Source: a virus. From it: a DNA stretch of 38,629 nucleotides. Positions 184 to 36,169 of this stretch are shown here, piece after piece (position 1 is the stretch's first letter; every line of letters starts with the position of its first letter). A model generated the notes under the pieces. It saw nothing but the letters and a program-made list of their open reading frames with translations, did no database searches and was not told the origin of the DNA. Where the stretch lies: positions 1 to 38,629 of the IMG/VR virus record IMGVR_UViG_3300048445_000038; one strand, written 5' to 3'. Position numbers and translations under genes: made by a program.

Positions 184-199
184 GAAGTCTCTTGCTAAG

Positions 200-274
200 T
201 GGTGGGCGACCTAGGAATCGAACCTAGCGTGCGTCTCCGCGAGGGAGTTACAGTCCCCTCGAACTAGAGCCACC
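200..274 (-). tRNA. tRNA-Tyr(GTA)-like element: 3' portion intact, 5' quarter degenerate; candidate attP
   Basis: On the minus strand an anticodon arm (stem GGGGA/TCCCT, loop CTGTAAC, anticodon GTA, 242-258) is followed by a 14-nt class II variable arm (228-241). A perfect T arm comes next (CTAGG, loop TTCGATT, CCTAG, 211-227), then acceptor strand GTCGCCC, discriminator A and encoded CCA (200-202). The 5' side does not match: only about 16 nt resemble a tRNA start, there is no proper D arm, and GGTGGCT cannot pair with GTCGCCC. Either it is a damaged or atypical tRNA-Tyr gene, or it is the 3' tRNA segment a phage carries as attP. The second reading fits the integrase at 35342-36169. Confidence 0.5.
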
Positions 275-305: not shown

Positions 306-342
306 TACCCACACTATGTTCATATCGGAAATCCCCTGTCAA
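306..342 (-). promoter_or_regulatory. Putative host sigma70 promoter for the leftward early unit
   Basis: On the minus strand a perfect -35 TTGACA (342-337) is followed after 18 nt by CATAGT (318-313), which matches TATAAT at four of six positions. The start would be near 306, about 30 nt before the tRNA-like element and 160 nt before the first early gene. A host-type promoter is expected here, because early genes must be transcribed before the phage polymerase is made. Confidence 0.5.
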
Positions 343-370
343 ACATTTTGTGTCCTTCAGATGCATTTTG

Positions 371-396
371 TTGACTTCTGCCCCCCTATAGAGAGG
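371..396 (+). promoter_or_regulatory. Putative phage RNA polymerase promoter of the late (structural) unit
   Basis: The plus strand reads ACTTCTGCCCCCCTAT (374-389) followed by AGAGAGGAAG. The 20 bases 370-389 recur as the inverse complement at 32610-32629 and, in part, at 35277-35291. The CTATAGAGAGG end resembles SP6 (CTATAGAAG) and T7 (CTATAGGGAGA) promoters, so the start is probably G391. In this orientation every copy points at the genes it would serve. The leader to the first recognised structural gene is long (about 880 nt) and contains two small genes. Confidence 0.65.
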
Positions 397-5352: not shown

Positions 5353-6800
5353 TGTGGGAAGTAATTAGTCAAAACCCTAAGTTCCAAGAGGCGTTTGGCG
5401 GCTATATGACCGAAGAGTTGTATAACCAGATGCCTCAGGACGCAAAAGACAACATTGCGCGTGTATACGGATCAGTAGGCACACCTAGTCCTGTGTTGGA
5501 CATCAAGCCTATGGAGATTTCTCCAGCGACAAACCCAAGTAATCAAAATCCTGTCTTAAACACACAGCCTAATCCGTACTTCCCACCTAATCAGGAAGCA
5601 CCAGCGGCTGCACCAGTCCCGACAGGCTATGAAGACTACAGTGTCCAAGACTTTATTAACGCTGGTAACACCCTGAACACAAATCCTGTGCTATCTGGTG
5701 ACATGAACCGTGGCGTCGAGCCTGTCGCACCTATTATGCAAGACCCGCAGCGCAGCGATGCATACCTAGGTACACTATCTAAAGAGAAACTACGTGAACT
5801 TGCAGACGCAGGTAACGTACAGGCCGCAGCATTGCTTCAGGCAAACATTCCTGATCCAGTTGCACCGCCAGTCGTTGACCCAGCGCAACCAGCAGCACCT
5901 GTTTTGGCCCCGAATGTACCTGACGTTGACTACAGTGACCCGACTTTGGCACCTATGCCGCAGCCTGTCCTTGTAGATACAACTCAGCCCAAAACTGAGA
6001 CTACAACTACGGAATCCGATCCTGTGTTGAAGTCTGGTGGTCAAGGCCGTTCTACAGGCGCACTAAGTGCAGGTAGCATCACAAGTTCATCTGGTCCTAA
6101 GACAAGCAACGCGCGTGGCTCTCAGATGCCACAGATGCTGGTTGACCGTAACGAGGCATTGATCCGCATTGGTGGCGCAATGTACTCAGGTGCGCTGAAA
6201 GGCGATGGTATCGGCGCAGCCACAACAGAGTACGGACGTATCCAAGACGCAAACCGTGAGCAAGCACGTAAAATGGCTGAAGCGGAACAAAAGCGTCAGA
6301 TGGAAATGGCTAAACTACGTGCCAAAGGTGCGGGTGGCGGCAAAGGTAGTAAGAAAGACGGTGAGTTACTTACTGCTACAAACGCAGCGATGTCTAACTA
6401 CCAAGATGCACTTACAGCAATCCGTGACAGCCGTGCAGCAGGTGGTAACCTGACTGGTATCGGTGGTATCGCAAAGTCTCTAGTTGATAACTTCACTGGT
6501 GACGAAGACGCCGCAAGACGCCTCATTCTTAAACGAGTCAAAGTTGACGATGCTCTTTTACGTGTTGCTGAAACCAAGGGTGCTATCTCTAACGCAGAGA
6601 TGAAGTTGTTCTTGGACCCAGCACCTAAAGACTGGCAAGACGAGGCAATCTGGGAACAGTGGATTATCGACCGCATGGAAGCCTTACAGCGCGTTCAGCA
6701 GCGTTTGAGTCAAGGCGGAACAGTACCAGTGAATCAGCGACCTACAGGTTCTACAGCATCAGGACTGTCTGACGACGACTTGGCCTACATCAATAATTAG
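5352..6800 (+). CDS. Putative internal virion protein
   Basis: A 482-aa protein whose ATG overlaps the previous stop by one base (TAATG), implying translational coupling. The N-terminal 220 residues are Pro-, Asn- and Gln-rich and low in complexity. The C-terminal 200 contain a charged helical region (REQARKMAEAEQKRQMEM) and a predicted helical domain ending near DDDLAYINN. No enzyme motif seen. Position between two ejection-protein candidates suggests the middle component of the ejection set; family not recognised. Confidence 0.55.
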   Translation: MWEVISQNPKFQEAFGGYMTEELYNQMPQDAKDNIARVYGSVGTPSPVLDIKPMEISPATNPSNQNPVLNTQPNPYFPPNQEAPAAAPVPTGYEDYSVQDFINAGNTLNTNPVLSGDMNRGVEPVAPIMQDPQRSDAYLGTLSKEKLRELADAGNVQAAALLQANIPDPVAPPVVDPAQPAAPVLAPNVPDVDYSDPTLAPMPQPVLVDTTQPKTETTTTESDPVLKSGGQGRSTGALSAGSITSSSGPKTSNARGSQMPQMLVDRNEALIRIGGAMYSGALKGDGIGAATTEYGRIQDANREQARKMAEAEQKRQMEMAKLRAKGAGGGKGSKKDGELLTATNAAMSNYQDALTAIRDSRAAGGNLTGIGGIAKSLVDNFTGDEDAARRLILKRVKVDDALLRVAETKGAISNAEMKLFLDPAPKDWQDEAIWEQWIIDRMEALQRVQQRLSQGGTVPVNQRPTGSTASGLSDDDLAYINN

Positions 6801-10721: not shown

Positions 10722-11064
10722 GAATGCGGGACGTCCTAAAGGGACACGAGATGGGTACACCTTGGAAGCCATTACACCAATCAGAGAACAGGCGAAAAAA
10801 GATGCCGAAAGGATTGTTGCTAAGATGACCAAAGATAACAACATCGACGACGAATACGCAATTGAGGCTCTAAAAGCAGCCGTAGAAATCATGCGAGAGC
10901 CGTGTCAAAATCGTGACCGTTTGACAGCCGCGCGTATGGTCTTGGACTTTACTAAGACAAAACCCGCTGCAAAAAGCGAAGTTACTATTGGCAAGGCTGA
11001 AGCCTTCTTGGAGTCGCTTTTAGTTAGCGATGACGAAGAAGAGCAAGATGGATCAGAAACTTAG
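10564..11064 (+). CDS. Terminase small subunit (putative)
   Basis: A 166-aa protein. The basic N-terminus contains KPRKNAGRPKGTRDG, an AT-hook-like GRPKG element as seen in DNA-binding small terminases. A helical domain (about 80-140) and an acidic tail (SDDEEEQDGSET) follow. It immediately precedes and overlaps the large subunit, the standard arrangement. Small subunits recognise the packaging site and load the large subunit on DNA. The ATG has AGGAG 9 nt upstream. Homology to a named family is not certain; the call rests on size, charge pattern and context. Confidence 0.7.
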   Translation: MGAPKNPRKKSPKKELTMPQKAHQAGKTNYFAKLMQTEEGRALRKQWSTKPRKNAGRPKGTRDGYTLEAITPIREQAKKDAERIVAKMTKDNNIDDEYAIEALKAAVEIMREPCQNRDRLTAARMVLDFTKTKPAAKSEVTIGKAEAFLESLLVSDDEEEQDGSET

Positions 11065-12619
11065 AGAAGTACGCAAGCGTCTCTACGACGACTTCACCTT
11101 CTACGCTAAATCAGCACTCAAGATTAGAACCAAAGACGGCGACATCAGCCCTTTGGTACTCAAACCTGCCCAGCGCATTTTGCAGACGGCAGTAGAGAAG
11201 CAACTAGTAGAAGAGGGTAAGGTCCGTATCATCATCCTCAAGGCACGACAGCAAGGTCTGTCTACCTATGTCGGTGGTTACCTGTATCACAACGTGTCCC
11301 AGCGCAAAGCGTGTAAGGCAATGGTGATTACGCACCACAGTGACAGTACGCGAGCCTTGTTCGATATGACCAAGCGTTACCACGAGAACTGCCCTGAACT
11401 ACTAAAACCACACACCAAGTATTCATCACGTCGAGAACTTACGTTTGACGTATTGGATAGTTCGTATGTGGTTGCTACGGCAGGTGGTGAGAGTATTGGT
11501 CGAGGTGAGACGCTTACGCACGTACACGCCTCGGAACTTGCGTTCTGGTCGAAGTCTACAGCACTTGAGAACTGGAATGGTCTTACACAGGCTGTGCCTA
11601 ACAAAAAGGGTACGGCTATCTTTGTCGAGAGTACGGCTAACGGTGTCTCTGGCATCTTTTACGACCTATGGAAGGGTGCAGTAGAAGGAACCAACGGTTA
11701 CACACCTGTGTTCATACCTTGGTTTATGGACCCTGAGTACCGTGAGAATGTCCCAGAGAACTTCGAGCGTACACCTGAAGAGGAAGAGTTGTGTGAGAAG
11801 TATGAGTTGGACGATGGTCAACTTATGTTCCGTAGACGCAAGATTGCCCAGAACGGCATCGACCTCTTCAAGCAAGAATACCCAGCAGAACCAGAAGAAG
11901 CCTTCTTGACCACAGGTCGCCCTGTGTTCAACCCAGAGGCACTTCAGGAACGTCTAGGTGACACACGTGACCCTGTAGCAAACTTGGCCTTAGAGGGCGA
12001 AGAGTGGCTAGAGAATGTCAGAGGTGAACTCACCTTGTACCGCAAGTATGACTCAGGCGAGAGATACACAATCGGTGCTGACGTTGCGATGGGTGTCAGA
12101 GGTGGAGACTGGTCCGTGGCGCAAGTCTTGGACAGTAAGAAACGACAGGTCGCATCTTATCGTGCGCAAGTACACCCAGACTACTTCGCTGAGGTACTCT
12201 ACAGACTAGGCGAGTTCTTTAACTTCGCTTTGATAATCGTAGAGAACAACAGCCACGGTATCCTTACGTGTACACGCCTCGGCAAGGACATGGCGTACCC
12301 TAATTTCTACACTGAGATACAGGTAGACAAACTGACGGACAAAGAGACCGTCAAGTTGGGCTTTACCACCACATCCAAGACAAAGCCGTTAGTCATTGAT
12401 GAACTTAGGGCGGCGGTTCGTGAGGGAACTATCGAACTTAATGACAAAGTAACTATCCGAGAGATGCTGACATACATCGTGAATACCACTGGTGGCATGG
12501 AGGCAGAGTCTGGATGCTTCGATGACTGTGTAATGAGTTTGGCATTAGCCAACCACATCCATGAGGGTGCTTGGGAACCAATAGAGGCAGTCGATGATCT
12601 ATATATTGAGATGGTTTAA
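11048..12619 (+). CDS. Terminase large subunit
   Basis: A 523-aa packaging ATPase-nuclease. The Walker A-like motif is KARQQGLST (65-73), the Walker B acidic pair lies in VHASELAFW (E163), and coupling-motif residues follow (FVESTANG). The C-terminal RNase H-like nuclease starts with YTIGADVAMG, with metal-binding Asp in the first strand and DDCVMSLALA near the end. These are the standard features of terminases that cut and translocate DNA into proheads. The ATG at 11048 follows a purine-rich AAGAAGAG site. An in-frame ATG at 11030 has no such site. It overlaps the small subunit by 17 nt. Confidence 0.93.
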   Translation: MDQKLREVRKRLYDDFTFYAKSALKIRTKDGDISPLVLKPAQRILQTAVEKQLVEEGKVRIIILKARQQGLSTYVGGYLYHNVSQRKACKAMVITHHSDSTRALFDMTKRYHENCPELLKPHTKYSSRRELTFDVLDSSYVVATAGGESIGRGETLTHVHASELAFWSKSTALENWNGLTQAVPNKKGTAIFVESTANGVSGIFYDLWKGAVEGTNGYTPVFIPWFMDPEYRENVPENFERTPEEEELCEKYELDDGQLMFRRRKIAQNGIDLFKQEYPAEPEEAFLTTGRPVFNPEALQERLGDTRDPVANLALEGEEWLENVRGELTLYRKYDSGERYTIGADVAMGVRGGDWSVAQVLDSKKRQVASYRAQVHPDYFAEVLYRLGEFFNFALIIVENNSHGILTCTRLGKDMAYPNFYTEIQVDKLTDKETVKLGFTTTSKTKPLVIDELRAAVREGTIELNDKVTIREMLTYIVNTTGGMEAESGCFDDCVMSLALANHIHEGAWEPIEAVDDLYIEMV

Positions 12620-12621
12620 CG

Positions 12622-14646
12622 ATGAAAGAACTTAAAGAACTTGATGACGATAAAATCGTCTCAATCGTAGATAGCAGCCTACGAATGTCCATTGGATATG
12701 CGGATAGTGAACTGAGCCGTGAACGTTCGCGTGTTATGGACTACTACTCGGCAAAACTTCCGAAACCAGTGCATGACGGAAACAGCAAGTATGTGTCTCA
12801 GGACGTCTACGATGCTGTGGAAAGCATGAAGGCTGCACTTCTCGAAACATTCAGCACAGGCAACCGCACTCTACGCTTCTCACCGCAAGGACCAGAAGAC
12901 GTGATGATGGCTGAAGTCTGTACAGAGTACACCGACTACGTCCTCCACCGTCAGAACAACTTGTTCGAGGTGATGCAGACAGTCATTCATGATGGTCTGA
13001 TTGCAAGGGCAGGGGTAGCCAAAGTCTACTGGCAACAGCAGACTGATAGTTACCTTGAGTATGTCGAAGACCTAACCGAAGAGGAACTTGATGCAGTCTT
13101 GTCTGATGACATGGTTGAGATTGAGGAAATCGTAGAGGATGAGTTTGGTCTGTACACTGGTGAACTTCGTGTTTTCCGTGACACCTCACAGGTCAAGATT
13201 GAATCCGTTGCGCCTGAAGAGTTCCTAATCGAACCACAGTGTCGTTCACTGGAATCTGCATCTTTCGTTGCTCACCGCACACGTAAGACAATCGCAGAAC
13301 TGATTGAGATGGGCTATGACGAAGACCTTGTCATGGACATCAGTGACGAAGACAACGACTTTGACACAGACCCAGAGGTTCTATCTCGTTTTGATGACAT
13401 TGGTGCTGGACGTGGCTTCACGGCTGGCAAGGGTCACCAAAAACAAACACGTCAAGTGACAGTCGTTGAAGCGTACTTGCCTCTGGATGTAGACGCAAAA
13501 GGGACTACAGACCTATACCGTGTCGTCAAAGTAGGTAACGTCATGCTGTCTAAAGACATCGTGACACGTATGCCATTTGTTGCATTCGTACCTCTGCCAA
13601 TCCCACACGCATTCCACGGTAACAACTTCGCAGACAAGTTGATTGCCATTCAGAATGCACGGACTGTGTTGACACGCTCAATCCTTGACCACGCGATGGT
13701 TACAAACAACCCTCGCTACACTGTGGTCAAAGGTGGACTGACGAACCCACGTGAACTTATTGACAACCGTGTCGGCGGTATCGTGAACGTCACACGTCCA
13801 GATGCAATCAACCCAATGCCTCAGGCATCCCTCAACCCCTTCATATTCCAGACCATACAGATGCTGGATGAAGACAAAGAGGACACTTCAGGTGTCTCAC
13901 GTCTATCTCAGGGCTTGAACAAGGATGCTATTAGTAAACAGAACTCAGCAGCGATGGTTGAGCAACTGGCGACCATGTCCCAGCAGCGTCAAAAGATTAT
14001 CGCACGTAACTTCGCTAACAACTTCCTGAAACCATTGTTCAACCTTGTCTACCAGTTGTGTGTAGAGAACGAGACGATGGAAAAGATAGTCGAACTAGCG
14101 GGTACTTACGTCAAAATCACACCAGCACAATGGTCTGATAAGCGTGACGTGATGGTTGAGTTCAACCTTGGTTACGGTGAACAAGAGACACAGATTCAGA
14201 AGTATCTTGCGTTCCACCAGTTGTTTAGTGCCGACCCATCTCTACAGCAGATGTACGGTCCACAGCAAAAGTTCAAAATGCTTGGTGCTATCTTAGACAA
14301 GAGTGGAATTAAGAATGTTGCTGACTATCTACTCGATCCTTCTCAAGTACCACCCAAACAACCAGACCCAGCCTCACAGATGCAGATGCAAATGGCGCAG
14401 AAGCAACTTGAGGTACAAGAACGTCAGACAGCAGTTGCTGAACTTAAAGCACAGACTGACGCAGAGATTGCGAAGATGAAACTGCAACTTGAGCAACTCA
14501 AGTCACAGCAAGACTTCGCACTGAAGTCGGACAAGTTGGACCTACAAGAGTCTCAACAGGCACACAAAGAAGCAGTCAACTACGAAGAGTTGGAGATTGC
14601 AAAACGTGCTGAGGATGTCCGAGCAATCGCAAGCCCTAATGGGTAA
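12622..14646 (+). CDS. Portal protein
   Basis: A 674-aa protein directly after the large terminase, the typical portal position and size for P22-like podovirus portals. The N-terminal region has the family-like stretch LSRERSRVMDYYSAKLPK and SKYVSQDVYDAVESMKAALL, followed by a mixed wing/stem core. The C-terminal 100 residues form a Gln/Lys-rich coiled coil (from about QMQMQMAQKQLEVQE to the end), matching the barrel helix of long portals. Portals form the dodecameric ring through which DNA enters and leaves. Confidence 0.85.
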   Translation: MKELKELDDDKIVSIVDSSLRMSIGYADSELSRERSRVMDYYSAKLPKPVHDGNSKYVSQDVYDAVESMKAALLETFSTGNRTLRFSPQGPEDVMMAEVCTEYTDYVLHRQNNLFEVMQTVIHDGLIARAGVAKVYWQQQTDSYLEYVEDLTEEELDAVLSDDMVEIEEIVEDEFGLYTGELRVFRDTSQVKIESVAPEEFLIEPQCRSLESASFVAHRTRKTIAELIEMGYDEDLVMDISDEDNDFDTDPEVLSRFDDIGAGRGFTAGKGHQKQTRQVTVVEAYLPLDVDAKGTTDLYRVVKVGNVMLSKDIVTRMPFVAFVPLPIPHAFHGNNFADKLIAIQNARTVLTRSILDHAMVTNNPRYTVVKGGLTNPRELIDNRVGGIVNVTRPDAINPMPQASLNPFIFQTIQMLDEDKEDTSGVSRLSQGLNKDAISKQNSAAMVEQLATMSQQRQKIIARNFANNFLKPLFNLVYQLCVENETMEKIVELAGTYVKITPAQWSDKRDVMVEFNLGYGEQETQIQKYLAFHQLFSADPSLQQMYGPQQKFKMLGAILDKSGIKNVADYLLDPSQVPPKQPDPASQMQMQMAQKQLEVQERQTAVAELKAQTDAEIAKMKLQLEQLKSQQDFALKSDKLDLQESQQAHKEAVNYEELEIAKRAEDVRAIASPNG

Positions 14647-14663
14647 ATAACAAAAGGTTCAAT

Positions 14664-14936
14664 ATGCCTACACAAGAAGAGCAACTTGTGACGGCAGGGG
14701 ATGAAGCAGAGGTACTACTAAAGTCCTCTGCATTTTCTTCTGTTGTCGATTCAATCGTGGAGAGTGCTTTCTCTACCTTTGTAAACTCACAGCCCGACGA
14801 ACAGTCGAAACGTGAATCAGCATACCACCACTATCGCGGACTAGCAGACGTGGTGAACACCCTAAAGCAGAGAGTTGAAGTGCGTGACAACATTTTGGCT
14901 CAAGGCGACAATAGCCAAGAGGAACTAGGTCTATGA
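14664..14936 (+). CDS. Hypothetical protein between portal and scaffold
   Basis: A 90-aa acidic, helical protein without cysteines or membrane segments. It starts 17 nt after the portal stop with an AAAAGG site, and its stop overlaps the scaffold start (ATGA), so the two are probably translationally coupled. Small genes in this place are common in podoviruses and often encode minor head proteins. No family recognised. Confidence 0.7.
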   Translation: MPTQEEQLVTAGDEAEVLLKSSAFSSVVDSIVESAFSTFVNSQPDEQSKRESAYHHYRGLADVVNTLKQRVEVRDNILAQGDNSQEELGL

Positions 14937-15997
14937 CAGACGACCCAAACAGTAACTCAGAACCCCGCGCGTTAGATTTAGATGACGCCGCAGATGCAAT
15001 CTTAGGTCGGTGGGATGACGGTGAAAACCTATCTGAACCCGAAGACGAAGATGCGACACCCGAAGAGGTCGAAGAGACAGACCTTGAAGAGGGTGCTTAT
15101 GAAGATGACGATGACGACCTTGAAGAAGAAGTAGAGGACGACACGGACCCTGAAGAAACTGATGAAGCCGAAGAAGACGACGAAGAAGAGGTCGAAGAAG
15201 ACGATACAGAGGAACCAACCACTGTGTCCGAAGACGCCCTTGTCGAAGTCAACGTAAAAGGTGAAAACAAACAGGTATCCGTGAAGGAACTGAAAAGACT
15301 TTATGGTCAAGAAGCATCTTTAACACAAAAGTCTCAAGATTTAGCATCCCAGCGCAAAGTTGCGGAACACGAGTTCCAAAGAACGCAATTAGCATACCAA
15401 AAGATGTTAGAACGTGCAGAGGCCCGACTAGCCCCATATTCAGAGATGGATATGTTACTAGCAGCCCAGCAGATGGACGCTGAAACATTCGCCCAACTCA
15501 GACAAGATGCACGTCAGGCCGAAGACGATGTGAAGTTCCTCAAAGAGGAAAGCAACTCATTACTTCAAGAACTACAGGGCAATCAGCAGCAAGCGATTCA
15601 AAAGGCAGCCACAGACTGTGTGCGTGTCCTCGAAGAGAACCTGCCAGATTGGGGCAACGAATTGTACAATGACATTCGTGCCTACGCTGTAAAATCAGGT
15701 CTGCCTCAAGAGCAAGTTGATCAATACACAGACCCTACGGTTATCATGTTGATCAACAAAGCGAGACTTTACGATGAGTCAAAGAAGTCAGCGCAATCAA
15801 AGAAAGCGAAGGCTAAAGTGACAAAGTCAAAGTCTACCAGAACAAAGGTCTTGAGTTCTAAGAAGTCCCCACCCTCCAAAACAACATTGAAGGCTAAACG
15901 CGCAGCAGACGCTCAAGCAAAACTGCGTAGCAACCCTCGTTATGGTGGTGACACGGATGATATTGCCGCAGCCCTTATGGCTCGCTGGGAAGAGTAA
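14933..15997 (+). CDS. Scaffolding protein
   Basis: A 354-aa protein placed between portal and capsid. Residues about 20-105 are extremely acidic (long D/E runs), then a coiled-coil middle (about 115-220). The C-terminal part is strongly basic (KSKSTRTKVLSSKKS, then LKAKRAADAQAKLR). An acidic N-terminus, central coiled coil and basic, capsid-binding C-terminus are the usual features of phage scaffolds, which template the prohead and leave before packaging. No protease motif is visible, so the scaffold is probably released whole. Confidence 0.85.
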   Translation: MTDDPNSNSEPRALDLDDAADAILGRWDDGENLSEPEDEDATPEEVEETDLEEGAYEDDDDDLEEEVEDDTDPEETDEAEEDDEEEVEEDDTEEPTTVSEDALVEVNVKGENKQVSVKELKRLYGQEASLTQKSQDLASQRKVAEHEFQRTQLAYQKMLERAEARLAPYSEMDMLLAAQQMDAETFAQLRQDARQAEDDVKFLKEESNSLLQELQGNQQQAIQKAATDCVRVLEENLPDWGNELYNDIRAYAVKSGLPQEQVDQYTDPTVIMLINKARLYDESKKSAQSKKAKAKVTKSKSTRTKVLSSKKSPPSKTTLKAKRAADAQAKLRSNPRYGGDTDDIAAALMARWEE

Positions 15998-16026
15998 ACT
16001 CTTGCCTAATAGAAGGATTCATACCA

Positions 16027-16911
16027 ATGGCAACATATACAACATACGATCAGGTCGGTAAGAAGGAATCGGTTGCAGATATTATAACCGACATTACGCC
16101 CTTCGATACGCCCGCATTTACGATGTTCAAAGACGAAAAAGTCTCTGCACGTACATTCTCATGGCTTGAGGATTCACTTGCAGCGGCTGGATCAAACGCA
16201 GCAGTTGAAGGCGCGGACGCCGTAATGGGTACATTGATTGACGCCGTAGAGCGTACAAACAACACCCAGATTCTGACCAAAGGTTTCCAAGTTTCTGCAA
16301 CAGCAGACGCGATTGCAACCTATGGGCGAGCGAAAGAGACCGCTCATCAGTTGGCGAAAGCCCTTAAAGAAATCAAGCGCGATGCAGAATTTGCTCTAGT
16401 TGGTGCAGACCAAGCAGCCGTGACTGGTTCTGGTTCTACGGCACGTCAAATGGCTTCTGCAATCAACCAGATTTCTACAGCAGTAGACGCTGGTGCAAAC
16501 GCAAGCGACCCATTGACTGAAGCGAAACTGTTGGAAGCAGGTGAAACTGCATACAACAACGGTTCAGACGTTGACACACTTATGATTAAGCCAGGTGATG
16601 CACAAATCGTCGCTGGTTTCTCTGCGTCAGCAGGTCGTAACCGTGAGATTGCGCAAGGCAAAACATTGGTCAACGCAATCGACCTATACGTGTCTCCATA
16701 CGGTGAGTACCGTGTAATTTTGAACCGTCACCTAGAGTCATCACACGCTCTATTGATTGACCCATCAATGTTCAAAACATGTACTCTACGTCCGTTCACT
16801 CGCACACTTTTGGCTAAAAATGGCGACTCAGACCGCCACCAAATCGTCGGCGAGATGTCCGTCAAGCACATGAACTTTGCAGACTCAGTGAAAATCACTG
16901 GTTTGTCATAA
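16027..16911 (+). CDS. Major capsid protein (DUF5309 / HK97-fold)
   Basis: A 294-aa protein. The N-terminus (KKESVADIITDITPFDTPAF, then RTFSWLEDSLAAAGSNAAVEG) and the following NNTQILTKGFQVSATADAI and AKALKEIKRDAEFAL match the DUF5309 capsid family known from phage SU10 and relatives, not the T7 gp10 family. It forms the icosahedral shell. A strong terminator pair follows the gene, as often seen after the most highly expressed late gene. An AAGGA site precedes the ATG. Confidence 0.9.
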   Translation: MATYTTYDQVGKKESVADIITDITPFDTPAFTMFKDEKVSARTFSWLEDSLAAAGSNAAVEGADAVMGTLIDAVERTNNTQILTKGFQVSATADAIATYGRAKETAHQLAKALKEIKRDAEFALVGADQAAVTGSGSTARQMASAINQISTAVDAGANASDPLTEAKLLEAGETAYNNGSDVDTLMIKPGDAQIVAGFSASAGRNREIAQGKTLVNAIDLYVSPYGEYRVILNRHLESSHALLIDPSMFKTCTLRPFTRTLLAKNGDSDRHQIVGEMSVKHMNFADSVKITGLS

Positions 16912-18460: not shown

Positions 18461-18955
18461 ATGGCTAAGACATCGTTTTACTCTGGAACTGGTCTGACGA
18501 ATAACGACCAAAATTCCATCGATGGCGCAAAGAACGCTGCCGAGGCCGCACAAGCAGCCGCTGAAGCAGCACGTGATGCTGCACAGGCGTCACAAGCAGC
18601 GGCGGCATCGGATGCGGCAGGTATCGCATCAAATGTATCAGCCGCTGCAACCTCTGCAACAAATGCAGCGTCTTCAGCAAGTGCATCGGAGACATCTAGA
18701 TTAGCTTCAGAAGCTGCACAAGCAGCCGCTGAACTAGCAGAGACAAATGCAGCGGCAAGCGAAACGGCAGCGGGGGCATCTGAATCCTTAGTGGCTGCTT
18801 CAGCCACGGCAGCGGCAGCTTCGGCTACAGCGGCGGCGGCAAGCGAAACGGCAGCGGGGGCATCAGCCACGGCGGCAGCGGCCTCTGAGGCTACGTCTGA
18901 GGCTACTCGGGATGCAATACTCTTGGTTAAATACGCAGCCTTCGCGGCTCTATAG
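18461..18955 (+). CDS. Alanine-rich fibre-base protein
   Basis: A 164-aa protein starting MAKTSFYSGTGLTNNDQNSI, a particle-anchoring motif seen at the start of podovirus fibres. Then come more than 110 residues of Ala-, Ser- and Glu-rich heptad-like repeats predicted to form a trimeric coiled coil. It ends with RDAILLVKYAAFAAL. There is no receptor-binding domain, so it probably forms a stalk that connects to the proteins encoded just downstream. The repeats are supported by internal DNA direct repeats. Confidence 0.7.
   Translation: MAKTSFYSGTGLTNNDQNSIDGAKNAAEAAQAAAEAARDAAQASQAAAASDAAGIASNVSAAATSATNAASSASASETSRLASEAAQAAAELAETNAAASETAAGASESLVAASATAAAASATAAAASETAAGASATAAAASEATSEATRDAILLVKYAAFAAL
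18752..18864 (+). repeat. Direct repeat inside the Ala-rich stalk gene
   Basis: A 29-nt unit containing GGCAAGCGAAACGGCAG occurs at 18752-18780 and 18836-18864, 84 nt (28 codons) apart and in frame. Recombination between copies would shorten or lengthen the stalk by whole coiled-coil turns. Confidence 0.8.
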
Positions 18956-31516: not shown

Positions 31517-31957
31517 TCACCTTTGTAGGCACTCTTCAATCCAGTCATCAGGGATGACCTTGTGTGCCCATAAGAAACCATGCTTCTCGCAGTAGTCCGC
31601 GTAGGTAGTCTTGCTACCTTTGTAGAGTTTGGACCGCGCATTGCTGAACACAAATCGAATGTCGATGTCTGTGTGCTGCTTCTTGATCAAGAGGTGTTTG
31701 GCACGGTCTTGGACCGCCCAAATGCCTTTCGACTCAAGATACCAAAATCCATCCTTCTTCGGCAGTTTGAAATCGGGGGTGTATCTCGCTTGCCGCGCTG
31801 GGATTTCATAGTGGATACGGTCAGTCTCATACAATACTTCAATCGAATGTGACTGAAGTTGCTCCGCTATGGTTTCTTCGAGGCCCGAACGGTAACCCGC
31901 CGCCAAGCCTCTGTAGAATGCTTTGTTCTTCTTTGGGAGGTTAGAAGTCAAAGTCAT
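31517..31957 (-). CDS. Endonuclease I, Holliday junction resolvase (T7 gp3-like)
   Basis: A 146-aa protein. The catalytic residues of T7 endonuclease I are matched: Glu in SGLEETIAEQL, Asp in ARYTPDFKL, and the E-x-K pair in FWYLESKGIW. It resolves branched DNA before packaging and helps break down host DNA. The gene starts within the last 17 nt of the SSB gene, so translation is probably coupled, and ends just before the terminator at 31488-31513. Confidence 0.92.
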   Translation of the reverse strand: MTLTSNLPKKNKAFYRGLAAGYRSGLEETIAEQLQSHSIEVLYETDRIHYEIPARQARYTPDFKLPKKDGFWYLESKGIWAVQDRAKHLLIKKQHTDIDIRFVFSNARSKLYKGSKTTYADYCEKHGFLWAHKVIPDDWIEECLQR

Positions 31958-32492
31958 CCTTGGTCACGTCTGTCTTGAGGGTGTCAGACGTGGCCTCCAT
32001 TGACGCATCGACGACAAAAGAGCCTTCGACCTCGTCAAATCCTGTTTCATCCCCACCGAAACCAACGACATCAACTACCTGAATCTTGTCCAGCATCATT
32101 GAGACACCAGATGAACCTGAGACAGTATAAAGGTTGAGAATACCGCCACCTTTTAGTTGGCTTCCGCCACCAATGTTCGGTAGTGCGCTGGGTGCGATTA
32201 CTTGACCCTTGGTGTCGTAAAACTTTGGTTGGTACTTTGACTGAACCTTGAAAGAAACCTCACCAGTCTCTTCGTCTACGCTGAAGGGCATACGAAGGTT
32301 CTTCTTAGATGCACCAAACTCTTCCGCTGCTGCTTCTTTGATCTTGGCGACCAAATGCTTTGCGTCTTCTTGTGACATCACAAGTTCCGTTTTGTACTTC
32401 GGGTTGTCCGTGTTGAAAGCAGTGTCTGGTTTGTTCAGGTGCGGATATTTCGCGCGGCCTACGTTAGTCAAGAATTGTATCTTTTTTGCCAT
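31941..32492 (-). CDS. Single-stranded DNA-binding protein (T7 gp2.5-like)
   Basis: A 183-aa protein with a beta-rich OB-like body (KIQFLTNVGRAKYPHLNKPD, LNLYTVSGSSGVSMMLDKIQ) and an acidic C-terminal tail ending VTKDDFDF. An acidic tail with terminal Phe is the hallmark of gp2.5-type SSBs and docks on the polymerase and helicase. AAAGGA lies about 10 nt before the ATG. First gene after a phage-type promoter and an intrinsic terminator. Confidence 0.88.
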   Translation of the reverse strand: MAKKIQFLTNVGRAKYPHLNKPDTAFNTDNPKYKTELVMSQEDAKHLVAKIKEAAAEEFGASKKNLRMPFSVDEETGEVSFKVQSKYQPKFYDTKGQVIAPSALPNIGGGSQLKGGGILNLYTVSGSSGVSMMLDKIQVVDVVGFGGDETGFDEVEGSFVVDASMEATSDTLKTDVTKDDFDF

Positions 32493-32519: not shown

Positions 32520-32546
32520 AAAAAGGGGTGACCCGAAGGCCACCCC
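32520..32546 (-). terminator. Intrinsic terminator before SSB
   Basis: On the minus strand GGGGTGGCC (32546-32538), TTCG loop and GGTCACCCC (32533-32525) form a 9-bp stem (one G-U), followed by TTTTT (32524-32520). A textbook terminator, 27 nt upstream of the SSB start and only about 62 nt downstream of the predicted phage promoter start. Confidence 0.85.
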
Positions 32547-32608
32547 AGAGGACAGGAAAAGAGTTTGAAAGTCAGCGGCAAATAGGGAGGAGAAAACCGC
32601 TGTCCTTC
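32520..32608 (-). ncRNA. Candidate short leader RNA between phage promoter and terminator
   Basis: If transcription starts at G32608 and stops at the T run ending 32520, an 89-nt RNA results. It contains AGGACAG (32606-32600... paired region) complementary to CTGTCCT (32555-32549), CAGCGG complementary to CCGCTG (32578-32573), and the terminator stem. The two upstream pairings compete for the same bases, which is what an attenuator or structured small RNA would show. No ORF of note inside. Existence is inferred. Confidence 0.4.
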
Positions 32609-32629
32609 GATAGGGGGGCAGAAGTCAAC
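32603..32629 (-). promoter_or_regulatory. Putative phage RNA polymerase promoter of the replication unit
   Basis: The minus strand reads ACTTCTGCCCCCCTAT (32625-32610) then CGAAGGACAG. It shares 25 bp with the copy before the RNA polymerase gene (35267-35291) and 20 bp with the late copy (370-389). It overlaps the RNA polymerase stop codon (32627-32625). CTATCGAAGG compares with CTATAGAAGG of SP6. Reads toward SSB and the replication genes. Confidence 0.65.
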
Positions 32630-35249
32630 TGAAGCAAAATTGACTCAATCTGATGGACTGTAAGTCCAGTGTCCCTTTCTCTGGAATATTCCTGTCGAAC
32701 TCATGTGCAGGGTTAGACAACTGTTGCCGAACCTCGTTTTCAAACCGTTCAAACACACACTCACCATTGTACATGTCGATGAATGTTTCTCGCACAGTAT
32801 CAAACAAGTCCCACACGTCACCACTCACAGAAAAACTGTCATGAATCATAAAGAAGTCCTCGGCAGTCCCTTCCTCCAACATTCTGACTATGCATAGGTG
32901 CATATGCCCTGAGTCACACCCATGAATCATGTTGGGGGCTATGCCGTTTGTGGCCTTCTTTACGTCACTCTGGTCTATCTCTTCGCGTAGTGACATCTTA
33001 GTGCGCCCACGTTGCTTGATTGCTCTGTCGTACAGGAAAATCTGAATCTCTTTGCGCTTCGTCTTCCTGTAGTCTTGGACAATCGGAAAGCCACTCGGTG
33101 ATGTCCACCTTATCGGCTTGTTCTCTCGTGCTAGAGCCTCGGTCACGTGCTGTAGGTACTCCATTGCTTCAGACACCTTGGGCAGGGTGTCCTGAATGGC
33201 GTCATAGCATACCTGAGCCATGAACCTTGCAGCATCGAACTGTTCCTCCTCGGTAGACCCAAGAGGGTGCGTGTCGATTTCCTTATAGGCAACTTTACGC
33301 TGCAAAGGCTGCATAAAGTCTTCCACGAACTGTGCGGACATTCCGACAGGCTTGGAACTGTATCCAAAGGTCATTACTGACCTCTTAAGAACGCTTCGGG
33401 TGACCCCATAGTCCAACCAAGTCTTTGCAAGTTCACCCACCGTCTTGCTGTTGTCGCGTCTGGCGTTGAAGGGTGTTTCGTCCTCAAGTTTACCTTCGAG
33501 AACCTTGACCACTCGCTCTGCATTGGTGCGGTAGATGTCGGCCATTTCTTCGCTAGGGACGAGGTTGACCAACGCACCTTCGCGTTTGCTTCGGTTGATG
33601 CCGCTGTAGTGCTGCACACCACTGTTAGTTCCGTCGAGGCTGATAGGGACGTAGGAAACGAAGTCTTCGCCCTCTGCCTCAAGCCTTGCGTACTCGAAGA
33701 CAGCCGCAAGAAACTGGAACGGTTTGTCAGCCTTGGACCAGAGGTCAAAAGTTGACTTGAAGTCTTGAGCGACCTCTAACAACCACTCCCGATTATCCTC
33801 AACCCACTGCACACGGTCATCCAGTGGACGCTTGGACACTTTGTCAAAGTCCCCTACGTTTGCTAAATGTACCTTTAACCAAAAGGCGTTATTACCGTCA
33901 ACTTTGTAGCCTCTGAAGTAAGTGAAGAGTGCCTTAATGTGGTCATCTCTGTGGTAGTTGAAGGTAGGTACAAAGTACAAGCGTCCCCTGAAGTCCATAT
34001 AGACTGGCAAATAGAACTTGTCGTGAACTGCCAGTTCATGCGCTGTCTGTAAGTCCTGACGCATAACCTCAGCGGCCCCTTTGACCTGTGACTCTAGTTT
34101 CTGGTGTCTCCTTATGTCTGCTTTGATTTCCGCAATGACCTCACGGTCCAACTCTTGCCAGTTCTCTGGCATCCGTGGTCTTTCTGGCAGTTTTGCGGTG
34201 GGAAACTTACCGAATTGCTTTTGTTCATCCCAACACCACTGGACTACCTCCAGAATAGCCTCATTGATCGACAGAGGAGTCGCCTGAAGCGCGTTAACTG
34301 CCTTGACGTAGGTAGGGGTGCCCTGAGTGAAAGCGTAGCGTATGGCGGCTTCCTGCTCCGCTGTGGCCCCTCTGACCAATTTGACTGAGGAGGCTAGGAA
34401 GTCGTCATGGTAACACCCTGTGTCAAAGTCCACCCAAGGCTTAGGCTCCGCAAGCATTGGCTTGTAGATCGGGGCCATCCAAGAGAGGTATCTTTCAGAC
34501 TTCTCTAGTTGCTCTTGTGCTTCATCCGTAAAGGTCAACTTCAGGCTGGTATTGTTCTTACCTTCGACCACAAGCACCTTGTCGAACACATCAGAGAACT
34601 CAAGCACATTAGACAGCACAGGTGCCGCTAGTTTGGCTCTGCGTTCTTTAAGTGCCTGACGTTCTGCACGTGTCTTAGCTATGCCGAAGTTCAAAGACCG
34701 CATACCGTTCTTCTCTGCGATAATCCGCAGGGCTTTCAGTCTGTATGCAGGGCTGGTGTGCGCCTCTGTTACTTGGTCAATTAGTCGCTTGTTTGTGTTG
34801 AGTGGCTTTGGTCTCTCAAGTCCAAGTTCTTCGGCTTGCTGTACGGCTGCACGATGCTTGGCCTTGTCGTCTAGCATTAGGTCATGCTTGAGCAACTCTT
34901 TCTCCACAAGTTCGCCTATCTTTTGGGTGACTTGAGTGACCGACTCCGTCTTCAACACCCCATTAAAGGAACACAAAAGACCAATGTAAGCTAAAGTGCT
35001 TGAGTCTACTTGTGACAACTCCTCCACCCACATAGGCAAACGGCCTTTGGTGGCTTTAGCTGACTTTAGTGACTGTAGTATTCCTTCAGCTACCTTTGGT
35101 AATGCTTCTTTTAGTTTGTTGAAGTGGTGGGGGCTATCTGTCGCTTCAGTCTGCTCAGAGTGCTTTTGGTCCCACTTGTCCTTCCCTTGTTCCCTCATGC
35201 TCCACTCATAGGCGGCATTAGTATCCTTAGCATCTATAGTTTTATTCAT
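32625..35249 (-). CDS. Single-subunit DNA-dependent RNA polymerase (T7-like)
   Basis: An 874-aa enzyme, close to T7 RNAP (883 aa). Catalytic motifs: motif A SLDGTNSGVQHYSG (D539), motif B RSVLKRSVMTFGYSSKPVG (R618, K622, Y630), motif C MIHDSFSV (D804). The C-terminus ends in LSQFCFS, with the terminal aromatic pattern of this family. It takes over transcription of middle and late phage genes from its own promoters, probably the three repeated elements described here, one of which lies directly upstream of this gene and would make it self-amplifying. ATG 35249. Confidence 0.95.
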   Translation of the reverse strand: MNKTIDAKDTNAAYEWSMREQGKDKWDQKHSEQTEATDSPHHFNKLKEALPKVAEGILQSLKSAKATKGRLPMWVEELSQVDSSTLAYIGLLCSFNGVLKTESVTQVTQKIGELVEKELLKHDLMLDDKAKHRAAVQQAEELGLERPKPLNTNKRLIDQVTEAHTSPAYRLKALRIIAEKNGMRSLNFGIAKTRAERQALKERRAKLAAPVLSNVLEFSDVFDKVLVVEGKNNTSLKLTFTDEAQEQLEKSERYLSWMAPIYKPMLAEPKPWVDFDTGCYHDDFLASSVKLVRGATAEQEAAIRYAFTQGTPTYVKAVNALQATPLSINEAILEVVQWCWDEQKQFGKFPTAKLPERPRMPENWQELDREVIAEIKADIRRHQKLESQVKGAAEVMRQDLQTAHELAVHDKFYLPVYMDFRGRLYFVPTFNYHRDDHIKALFTYFRGYKVDGNNAFWLKVHLANVGDFDKVSKRPLDDRVQWVEDNREWLLEVAQDFKSTFDLWSKADKPFQFLAAVFEYARLEAEGEDFVSYVPISLDGTNSGVQHYSGINRSKREGALVNLVPSEEMADIYRTNAERVVKVLEGKLEDETPFNARRDNSKTVGELAKTWLDYGVTRSVLKRSVMTFGYSSKPVGMSAQFVEDFMQPLQRKVAYKEIDTHPLGSTEEEQFDAARFMAQVCYDAIQDTLPKVSEAMEYLQHVTEALARENKPIRWTSPSGFPIVQDYRKTKRKEIQIFLYDRAIKQRGRTKMSLREEIDQSDVKKATNGIAPNMIHGCDSGHMHLCIVRMLEEGTAEDFFMIHDSFSVSGDVWDLFDTVRETFIDMYNGECVFERFENEVRQQLSNPAHEFDRNIPEKGTLDLQSIRLSQFCFS

Positions 35250-35266: not shown

Positions 35267-35292
35267 TGTCCTTCGATAGGGGGGCAGAAGTA
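35267..35292 (-). promoter_or_regulatory. Putative phage RNA polymerase promoter of the RNA polymerase gene
   Basis: The minus strand reads ACTTCTGCCCCCCTAT (35292... region) then CGAAGGACAAC. The 25-bp block 35267-35291 is identical to 32601-32625. Predicted start G35274, 25 nt before the polymerase ATG. It would give positive self-regulation. The remainder of 35293-35341 shows nothing else of note. Confidence 0.65.
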
Positions 35293-35341: not shown

Positions 35342-36169
35342 TTACCCTGCCATTTGCGCTGCCAGTGCTTGAAGTGCGCTGGGTTTGGCTTTGATGTACT
35401 TGCGGGTGGTCTTCTCGCTCTTATGCCCTAAGAGCATCCCTATGACCGCTGTGTTAGCCTTGAGGTCATTCGCCATGACTGTCGCGGCTGTGTGTCTCAG
35501 CGTGTGGAACACATAGCGGCTGTCGTTGCCTAGGATGTCTCTACGCATGGCACCCCAAGCACGGTAGAACCGCGTGTGTTCAAAGAAGCCACGACAGTCA
35601 AAACCTAAGGCTTCTAATGCGCTGTATGCTCTGGCGTTCACTGGTACAAACCGTTCCTCTCCGTTCTTGGTTTTCTCAAGGTGAATCCATGTGTCACCGT
35701 TGTCATCCTCGGTGATGCTGTGAGGTGCCACTTGGCATATTTCACCGAGCCTCATGCCTGTCTGGTGACCAATTACAACGAAGTGTTCCACCCAAGGTTC
35801 ACTGGAATCCCTGAACCATGCTTCCACACGCTCCAACTGTGCTTTGGTGAAGTAGAGTGGACGCTGTGTGTTTTCCACGGTTTTCCATGTGAACTGTGGT
35901 GCGTGGGTGATTACCTCCTCCTTCACCGCTTGCTTGAAAACCTTGGTCAGCATGGCTGCGTAGTGGTTCACTGTGTTGTCGCTCAGTCCCTGCGCTGTAA
36001 GGCTGTCAAAGTAGGCGTGGATGTCGGAAGGCTTGAAGTCGCCTATGTGCCGTGTGCTGTGGTCAGCAAAGGCAGCGAACTTCTCACCCTTGGCAATCGA
36101 GCGGCGTTTGTGGTCCCCACGCCACAGACGGTCAGCCTCTTGGTTCATAAAGTCAGCAAAAGTAATCAT
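35342..36169 (-). CDS. Tyrosine integrase/recombinase
   Basis: A 275-aa protein with a core-binding N-terminal domain (about 1-100) and a catalytic domain. Catalytic residues: R140 in HQTGMRLGEI, HTLRH (H222, R225), GHK (H249), and nucleophile Y258 in TTRKYIK. All are present, so the enzyme looks active. It lacks the extra N-terminal arm-binding domain of lambda Int, as do several integrases of marine podoviruses, where int also sits directly before the RNA polymerase. No excisionase or repressor gene is evident. Its start overlaps the previous stop (ATGA). Confidence 0.93.
   Translation of the reverse strand: MITFADFMNQEADRLWRGDHKRRSIAKGEKFAAFADHSTRHIGDFKPSDIHAYFDSLTAQGLSDNTVNHYAAMLTKVFKQAVKEEVITHAPQFTWKTVENTQRPLYFTKAQLERVEAWFRDSSEPWVEHFVVIGHQTGMRLGEICQVAPHSITEDDNGDTWIHLEKTKNGEERFVPVNARAYSALEALGFDCRGFFEHTRFYRAWGAMRRDILGNDSRYVFHTLRHTAATVMANDLKANTAVIGMLLGHKSEKTTRKYIKAKPSALQALAAQMAG

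Follow-up and report, generated by a model that had tools for sequence, protein, structure and literature searches.

Three sites in a marine phage genome are very probably promoters of its own T7-family RNA polymerase

Introduction

From which sites does a phage that encodes its own RNA polymerase transcribe its genes? The question is raised by the window analyzed here, the whole 38,629 bases of an IMG/VR virus record, in which one short element recurs at three places. A sequence-only reading of this DNA had taken the three copies for promoters of the phage RNA polymerase and their recognition block for a new specificity, unlike that of T7 or SP6 promoters. Our computational analysis covers the elements, their conservation, their polarity and their co-change with the polymerase. 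We conclude that the three elements, from -17 to +6, are very probably promoters of the T7-family RNA polymerase of the phage, and that they likely represent a new specificity within the T7-class promoters.

Results

The ends of the window repeat each other over 136 nt, 135 of them identical, as expected when a near-complete phage genome has been assembled as a circle. The leftward genes extend from about position 145 across the end of the window and down to 23.8 kb. The early genes, for which the scans made gave no family matches, come first; they are followed by the integrase (35342-36169), the RNA polymerase (32625-35249), the Gp2.5-like single-stranded DNA-binding protein (SSB), endonuclease I, primase-helicase, MazG, DNA polymerase, exonuclease and, last, ribonucleotide reductase. 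Between about 0.6 and 23 kb the genes point rightward and encode an SU10-type capsid protein besides tail, portal and terminase; the terminase is nearest to that of Roseobacter phage CRP-7 (40.6%), then to those of non-T7 podoviruses. The phage thus has the single-subunit RNA polymerase and the T7-like replication genes of the Autographiviridae. However, that family also carries a T7-like structural and packaging module with all genes on one strand, whereas the structural module here is not T7-like and lies on the opposite strand, and for this reason we do not file the phage under Autographiviridae. The structural and packaging genes at 11030-16911 form a mosaic with the T7-like replication and transcription genes. 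A rightward reading frame contains tandem alanine-rich repeats of about 21-36 nt (18536-18885), comparable to the tandem repeats of a tail structural gene of CRP-7.

The motif ACTTCTGCCCCCCTAT is found at 374-389 on the plus strand and at 32610-32625 and 35276-35291 on the minus strand, with no further match in the window at up to three mismatches; in 100 dinucleotide shuffles, the mean number of matches at this threshold was 0.26. The longer identities noted earlier proved exact: 370-389 (GTTGACTTCTGCCCCCCTAT) is the reverse complement of 32610-32629, and 32601-32625 is identical to 35267-35291. In a repeat search, this 25-nt family and its two inverted partners were conspicuous among the short repeats in non-coding DNA, the remaining short repeats lying mostly inside coding sequence. 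We also scored the window blindly, with a matrix made of 25 sites from relatives, the 90% clade of the window being left out. The three copies came out on top, with 26.4 at 35290(-), 26.4 at 32624(-) and 22.4 at 375(+). No other site of the window exceeded 10.7, and the highest score in eight shuffles was 12.9. A fourth candidate at 31924-31948, 72% alike, scored 8.5, inside the shuffle range, and was rejected.

The element spans about 23 bp, with a recognition block from -17 to -5 and an initiation block from -4 to +6, and lies on the strand of the genes downstream, along which each copy points, as had been claimed. The predicted promoter L (374-396, plus strand, ACTTCTGCCCCCC-TATA-GAGAGG, predicted +1 at 391) stands before the late (structural) module. 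The predicted promoter D (32603-32625, minus strand, -17 at 32625) would have its +1 at 32608; it overlaps the RNA polymerase stop codon and precedes the unit that leads from SSB (31941-32492, minus strand, PHROG 112), its first gene, through endonuclease I, primase-helicase, DNA polymerase and exonuclease to ribonucleotide reductase. The predicted promoter U (35269-35291, minus strand, -17 at 35291, predicted +1 at 35274) has a 25-nt leader to the ATG of the RNA polymerase gene. All show a TATAG-like melting and start region and a purine-rich initial transcript, TATAGAGAGG in L and TATCGAAGG in D and U; relatives have TATTGAAG or TCTTAGAG, and in some clades this region is less A+T-rich (TACCAGAGG).

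The gene at 32625-35249 (minus strand) encodes a T7-family single-subunit RNA polymerase of 874 aa (PHROG 414, E=3e-183; T7 RNA polymerase in the PDB, E=6e-83). T7 RNA polymerase is its best solved relative by sequence and by fold, its AlphaFold model (mean pLDDT 82.6) giving a Foldseek TM of 0.71 against the T7 polymerase-promoter complex 1cez. Its catalytic residues are intact, and the T7 residues K472, D537, R627, K631, Y639, H784, H811 and D812 are all kept in the alignment. The specificity loop corresponds to a beta-hairpin of residues 728-761 (32967-33068, minus strand), as indicated by the alignment, by the model (strands 728-741 and 746-761) and by covariation with promoter bases. E734 and Q736 align with T7 R746 and N748. 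The alignment of the second strand is ambiguous because of insertion and length differences in the loop; the turn of the model at 742-745 would set Q736 opposite K751, and K751 would then occupy the place of T7 R756.

Relatives comprised about 80 IMG/VR loci with polymerase identities of 41-100%, to which four further scans added more. A search of such relatives for the block near homologous units, proposed earlier as a check, found copies at the U, D and L positions. An element of the D kind directly follows the polymerase stop codon in about 65 relatives, with the variants CTTCTGTCCCCC, CTTCTGTCACCC, CTTCTGTCCACC, CTTCTACAACCC, CTTCTGCACCAC, CTTATGTCACCC, GATCAGGTACCC, ATTATGTCCCTT, AAGGGACCCCC and others. 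U is kept in the 70-100% and 55% clades and in the distant clades of loci L022, L159, L160 and L176, and the copy before the late module in L005, L010, L019, L020, L049, L057, L061 and L085; in L010 and L061 it precedes the same structural genes. No copy was found at the U position in the L036, L042 and L046-L066 clades, nor any element at the D position in clades L070-L080. The positions are kept down to about 40% polymerase identity, the sequence differs between clades, and the spacing from the recognition block to +1 varies by one base between clades. Where U or L copies are present, they are nearly always of the same variant as D of that genome. In the core from -11 to -5, which has nine distinct variants, we counted one within-genome mismatch versus 23.5 expected with shuffled partners, an agreement matched by one in 200,000 partner shuffles. 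L087 (IMG/VR, 28,999 bases) also has the exact 16-mer, once and next to a different +1 region; we treated this match as chance.

Does the polymerase change along with its presumed sites? For each promoter base we ranked 268 polymerase columns (T7 numbering) by normalised mutual information over 37 non-redundant relatives, L041 being left out for its broken reading frame; since all columns share one phylogeny, this ranking controls for relatedness. Base -10 had 748 as its top column and 746 as the second, and base -9 the same two in reverse order. The top column for base -7 was a second-strand position occupied by K or Q, the association being complete, and that for base -11 was the column aligned with 758; for base -8, no loop residue was the best correlate in this set. 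The pairs of residue 748 and base -10 were K-T (27), Q-C (5), Y-C (3), R-G (1) and K-G (1), those of residue 746 and base -9 were E-C (28), P-A (4) and Q-A (2), and those of the second-strand residue and base -7 were K-C (33) and Q-A (4). Within the 92-93% clade of the window, L006 has K748 with T at -10 in both copies, and the window and L005 have Q with C.

We then placed the changes on the branches of a tree built without the loop. For 748 and -10, five of the six residue changes and five of the seven base changes fall on common branches (p~9e-6); for 746 and -9, this is so for four of six residue changes and four of five base changes (p=7e-5). All three changes of the second-strand residue fall on branches where -7 changes too, with p=2e-5, a value to be multiplied by 268 because the column was picked after the scan. 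The T7 loop 739-770 reads bases -11 to -7, N748 contacting -10 and -11, R756 contacting -9 and Q758 contacting -8 (PMC5937735), so that the link between 748 and -10 could have been predicted beforehand. In T7 it is R756 that goes with -9, whereas in the family of the window the second-strand residue co-varies with -7. Altogether, this covariation indicates that the elements are recognized by the specificity loop, as T7-class promoters are.

Finally, we examined the leader that would follow D. The predicted transcript could form a 5' stem-loop (32567-32608, minus strand, GAAGGACAGCGG ... CCGCTGACTTTC) directly from the predicted +1. In most clades a stem-loop likewise starts there despite wide sequence divergence and with compensatory change, the arms being GAAGGACAGCGG/CCGCTGACTTTC in the window, GAAGAACAGGAG/CTCTTGTTCTTC in L008, GAAGACCCTT/AAGGGTCTTC in L176, GAAGCCCCTAGAGTC/GACTCTAGGGACTTC in L061 and GAGGAACC/GGTTCCTC in L026; compared with shuffles, part of these stem-loops are individually not significant. 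By this comparison, the stem-loop places the +1 of D at 32608. A terminator-like hairpin with a T-run (GGGGTGGCCTTCGGGTCACCCC TTTTTCT; 32525-32546, minus strand) lies between D and the SSB gene; it was found in the core relatives, and not in L198 and L160. The early terminator of T7 stops the host polymerase after the polymerase gene. In our reading the hairpin of the window would act in the same way on the host polymerase, and the phage enzyme would read through it; the hairpin may instead be an attenuator or give rise to a short RNA.

Discussion

The proposal that the three elements are promoters of the phage RNA polymerase finds support in their conserved positions, in the agreement of the copies within a genome, in the co-change with the specificity loop and in the 5' stem-loop that starts at a predicted +1. 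Counting against it are the link of the second-strand residue with -7 in place of -9, the lack of a loop residue as best correlate of -8, the clades in which no copy was found at the U position and the one-base variation in spacing between clades. Other readings have to explain the same data. With CTTC and GAAG as its arms, the element is a loose inverted repeat, and it stands before three units of a possibly temperate phage that has an integrase and a likely attP; one could thus imagine operators bound by a phage repressor or another dimeric regulator. We hold this to be very unlikely, as the middle of the element, TGCCCCCC, is asymmetric and its polarity relative to the downstream genes is constant, position -13 varies freely (A, C, G or T) against a partner arm that is constantly GAAG, and element bases co-change with the specificity hairpin of the polymerase; moreover, no repressor gene was identified in the phage. 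The same arms could pair in RNA, and a stem-loop does begin at the 3' end of the D element, so that the elements might be signals such as processing hairpins in read-through transcripts. The arms of the element do not co-vary, however, which led us to reject the hairpin reading of CTTC...GAAG. The recognition block is not part of the conserved stem-loop, which starts at the predicted +1 and is lacking in U, and the co-change with polymerase loop residues would stay unexplained. RNA signals in place of promoters are therefore most improbable.

Recognition by the host polymerase, with TTGACTT as a sigma-70 -35 box, has a practically negligible probability in our view. TTGACT is indeed present at the upstream edge of L and D, but U has ATACTT at that place, the TATAGA-like part is 10 nt away instead of the 16-18 required, and the sigma-70 scans listed none of the three sites. 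A different account of D alone would make it a conserved control leader, in which the stem-loop is followed about 80 nt further on by the terminator-like hairpin; the product would mostly be a short structured RNA, and read-through to the replication genes would be regulated. The two structures are indeed combined before the SSB gene in the core clades; we nevertheless regard this account as rather doubtful.

How new are these predicted phage promoters? The claim that they are unlike those of T7 or SP6 holds for the CTTCTG upstream half, for the C-run and for the number of three sites per genome, which set the window apart from the T7, T3, SP6 and K11 class. It does not hold for the layout, since the 23-bp arrangement and its register are the same, and G-11, C-9, C-7, C-5 and the TATAG of L are as in T7. 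Moreover, the validated T7-type promoter of CD23823, AATGTATACCCCTATATACAC, has a C-run before TATA as in the window, its upstream half and start region being different (PMC12272871). With the T7 register shared and such a C-run promoter already validated experimentally, we take the element for a specificity variant of the T7-class promoters and for no new kind of element. Placement is also familiar: like D, annotated promoters directly follow the polymerase gene in T7 and T3 (promoters compared: phi1.1A of T7; phi1.05, phi1.1 and phi1.3 of T3), and the T3 stem-loops R1.1 and R1.3 begin at promoter ends, as does the stem-loop of D. On the other hand, the polymerase of the window is only about 27% identical to that of T7 over aligned residues, and its specificity loop is longer.

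Parallels can be drawn with other phages. Syn5, a marine T7-like phage with an integrase, uses ATTGGGCACCCGTAAGGG, and only two promoters were reported, one of them within the polymerase gene (PMC3950665). The distant relatives L159 and L160 (AAGGGACCCCC) approach its core GGGCACCC; however, the polymerase of Syn5 is 24% identical to that of the window, the region from -4 to +1 differs, and its listed genes are all on one strand. LUZ100, also T7-like with an integrase, has a phage-specific promoter phi1 before its polymerase gene, for which positive feedback was proposed, but eight promoters with another motif (PMC10134795); the MarR-like regulator proposed there was not identified in the phage of the window. 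Roseobacter phage CRP-7 (MK613349, our L113) shares with the window a T7-like polymerase and a structural module on the opposite strand. It contains AGTCC(CC/AT)TATTAAAAGG four times, at 2028+, 7149+, 14766+ and 38278- (repeated motif AGTCCCCTATTAAAAGG), with one copy just before the polymerase gene and one on the other strand, and these are likely promoters of the CRP-7 RNA polymerase, which is 26% identical to that of the window; the CRP-7 motif is A+T-richer, with a shorter C-run. A paper on autographivirus roseophages does not mention promoters (PMC11092137).

We propose the following scheme. Inferred in it are that transcription does start at these sites, at which nucleotide it starts, in which order the units are expressed and that the hairpin after D is read through. 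Host RNA polymerase would transcribe the leftward early region first, and with it the gene of the phage polymerase. The phage enzyme would then act on U, in positive feedback on its own gene, on D for the replication and nucleotide genes and on L for the rightward structural genes, so that three sites could serve the whole genome. Within the loop, Q736 (equivalent to T7 N748) would read base -10, E734 (T7 746) would go with base -9 and K751 (T7 R756) with base -7, and the start nucleotide would be the G of GAAGG or GAGAGG.

These sites define a family of RNA polymerases from uncultured, mostly marine phages whose promoters are readable. The natural co-changes in this family (K748 with T-10, Q748 with C-10, E746 with C-9, second-strand K/Q with C/A at -7) amount to an evolutionary data set on the T7 promoter-recognition code beyond the T7/T3/SP6 group, and provide candidate polymerase-promoter pairs, possibly orthogonal.

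The first transcripts could come from a putative host sigma-70 promoter at 313-342 (minus strand, TTGACA-18-CATAGT), directed towards the early genes. Its TTGAC(A/G)GGGGAT is conserved in relatives, and it is on this conservation that the case is based, the chance expectation in the scan being about one. At 196-259 (minus strand), 64 nt are identical to the 3' part of Rhodobacteraceae tRNA-Tyr(GTA), which here reaches from the anticodon arm through CCA; ARAGORN found no intact tRNA, and a search of Rfam gave no match. This segment is likely the attP of the integrase, and the match points to a marine Rhodobacteraceae host. Within 145-342, the likely attP falls between the putative leftward promoter and the early genes, which start at 145, so that integration would cut the integrase and polymerase genes off from the early promoter. 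Such a placement is possibly a lysogeny switch.

L005, L020 and L085 carry a tRNA-Tyr 3' part similar to that of the window, whereas L010, L019, L049 and L066 have in its place the 5' half of this tRNA, which extends as far as the anticodon stem; two opposite att designs thus occur at one site. An uncultured Roseovarius (L249) has the tRNA-Tyr 3' part twice, at 6244-6271(-) and 6405-6432(-), 161 bp apart, possibly as an integration scar. In T7, reiterations of CCTAAAG adjoin the terminal repeat. Scattered heptamers reminiscent of them (ACTATAG, ACTAAAG, ACTAGAG, ACTGAAG) occur in the leader after L (386-526), which by this analogy may contain the physical end of the genome, and such heptamers are also present in the region after L of L010, L049, L057, L061 and L085.
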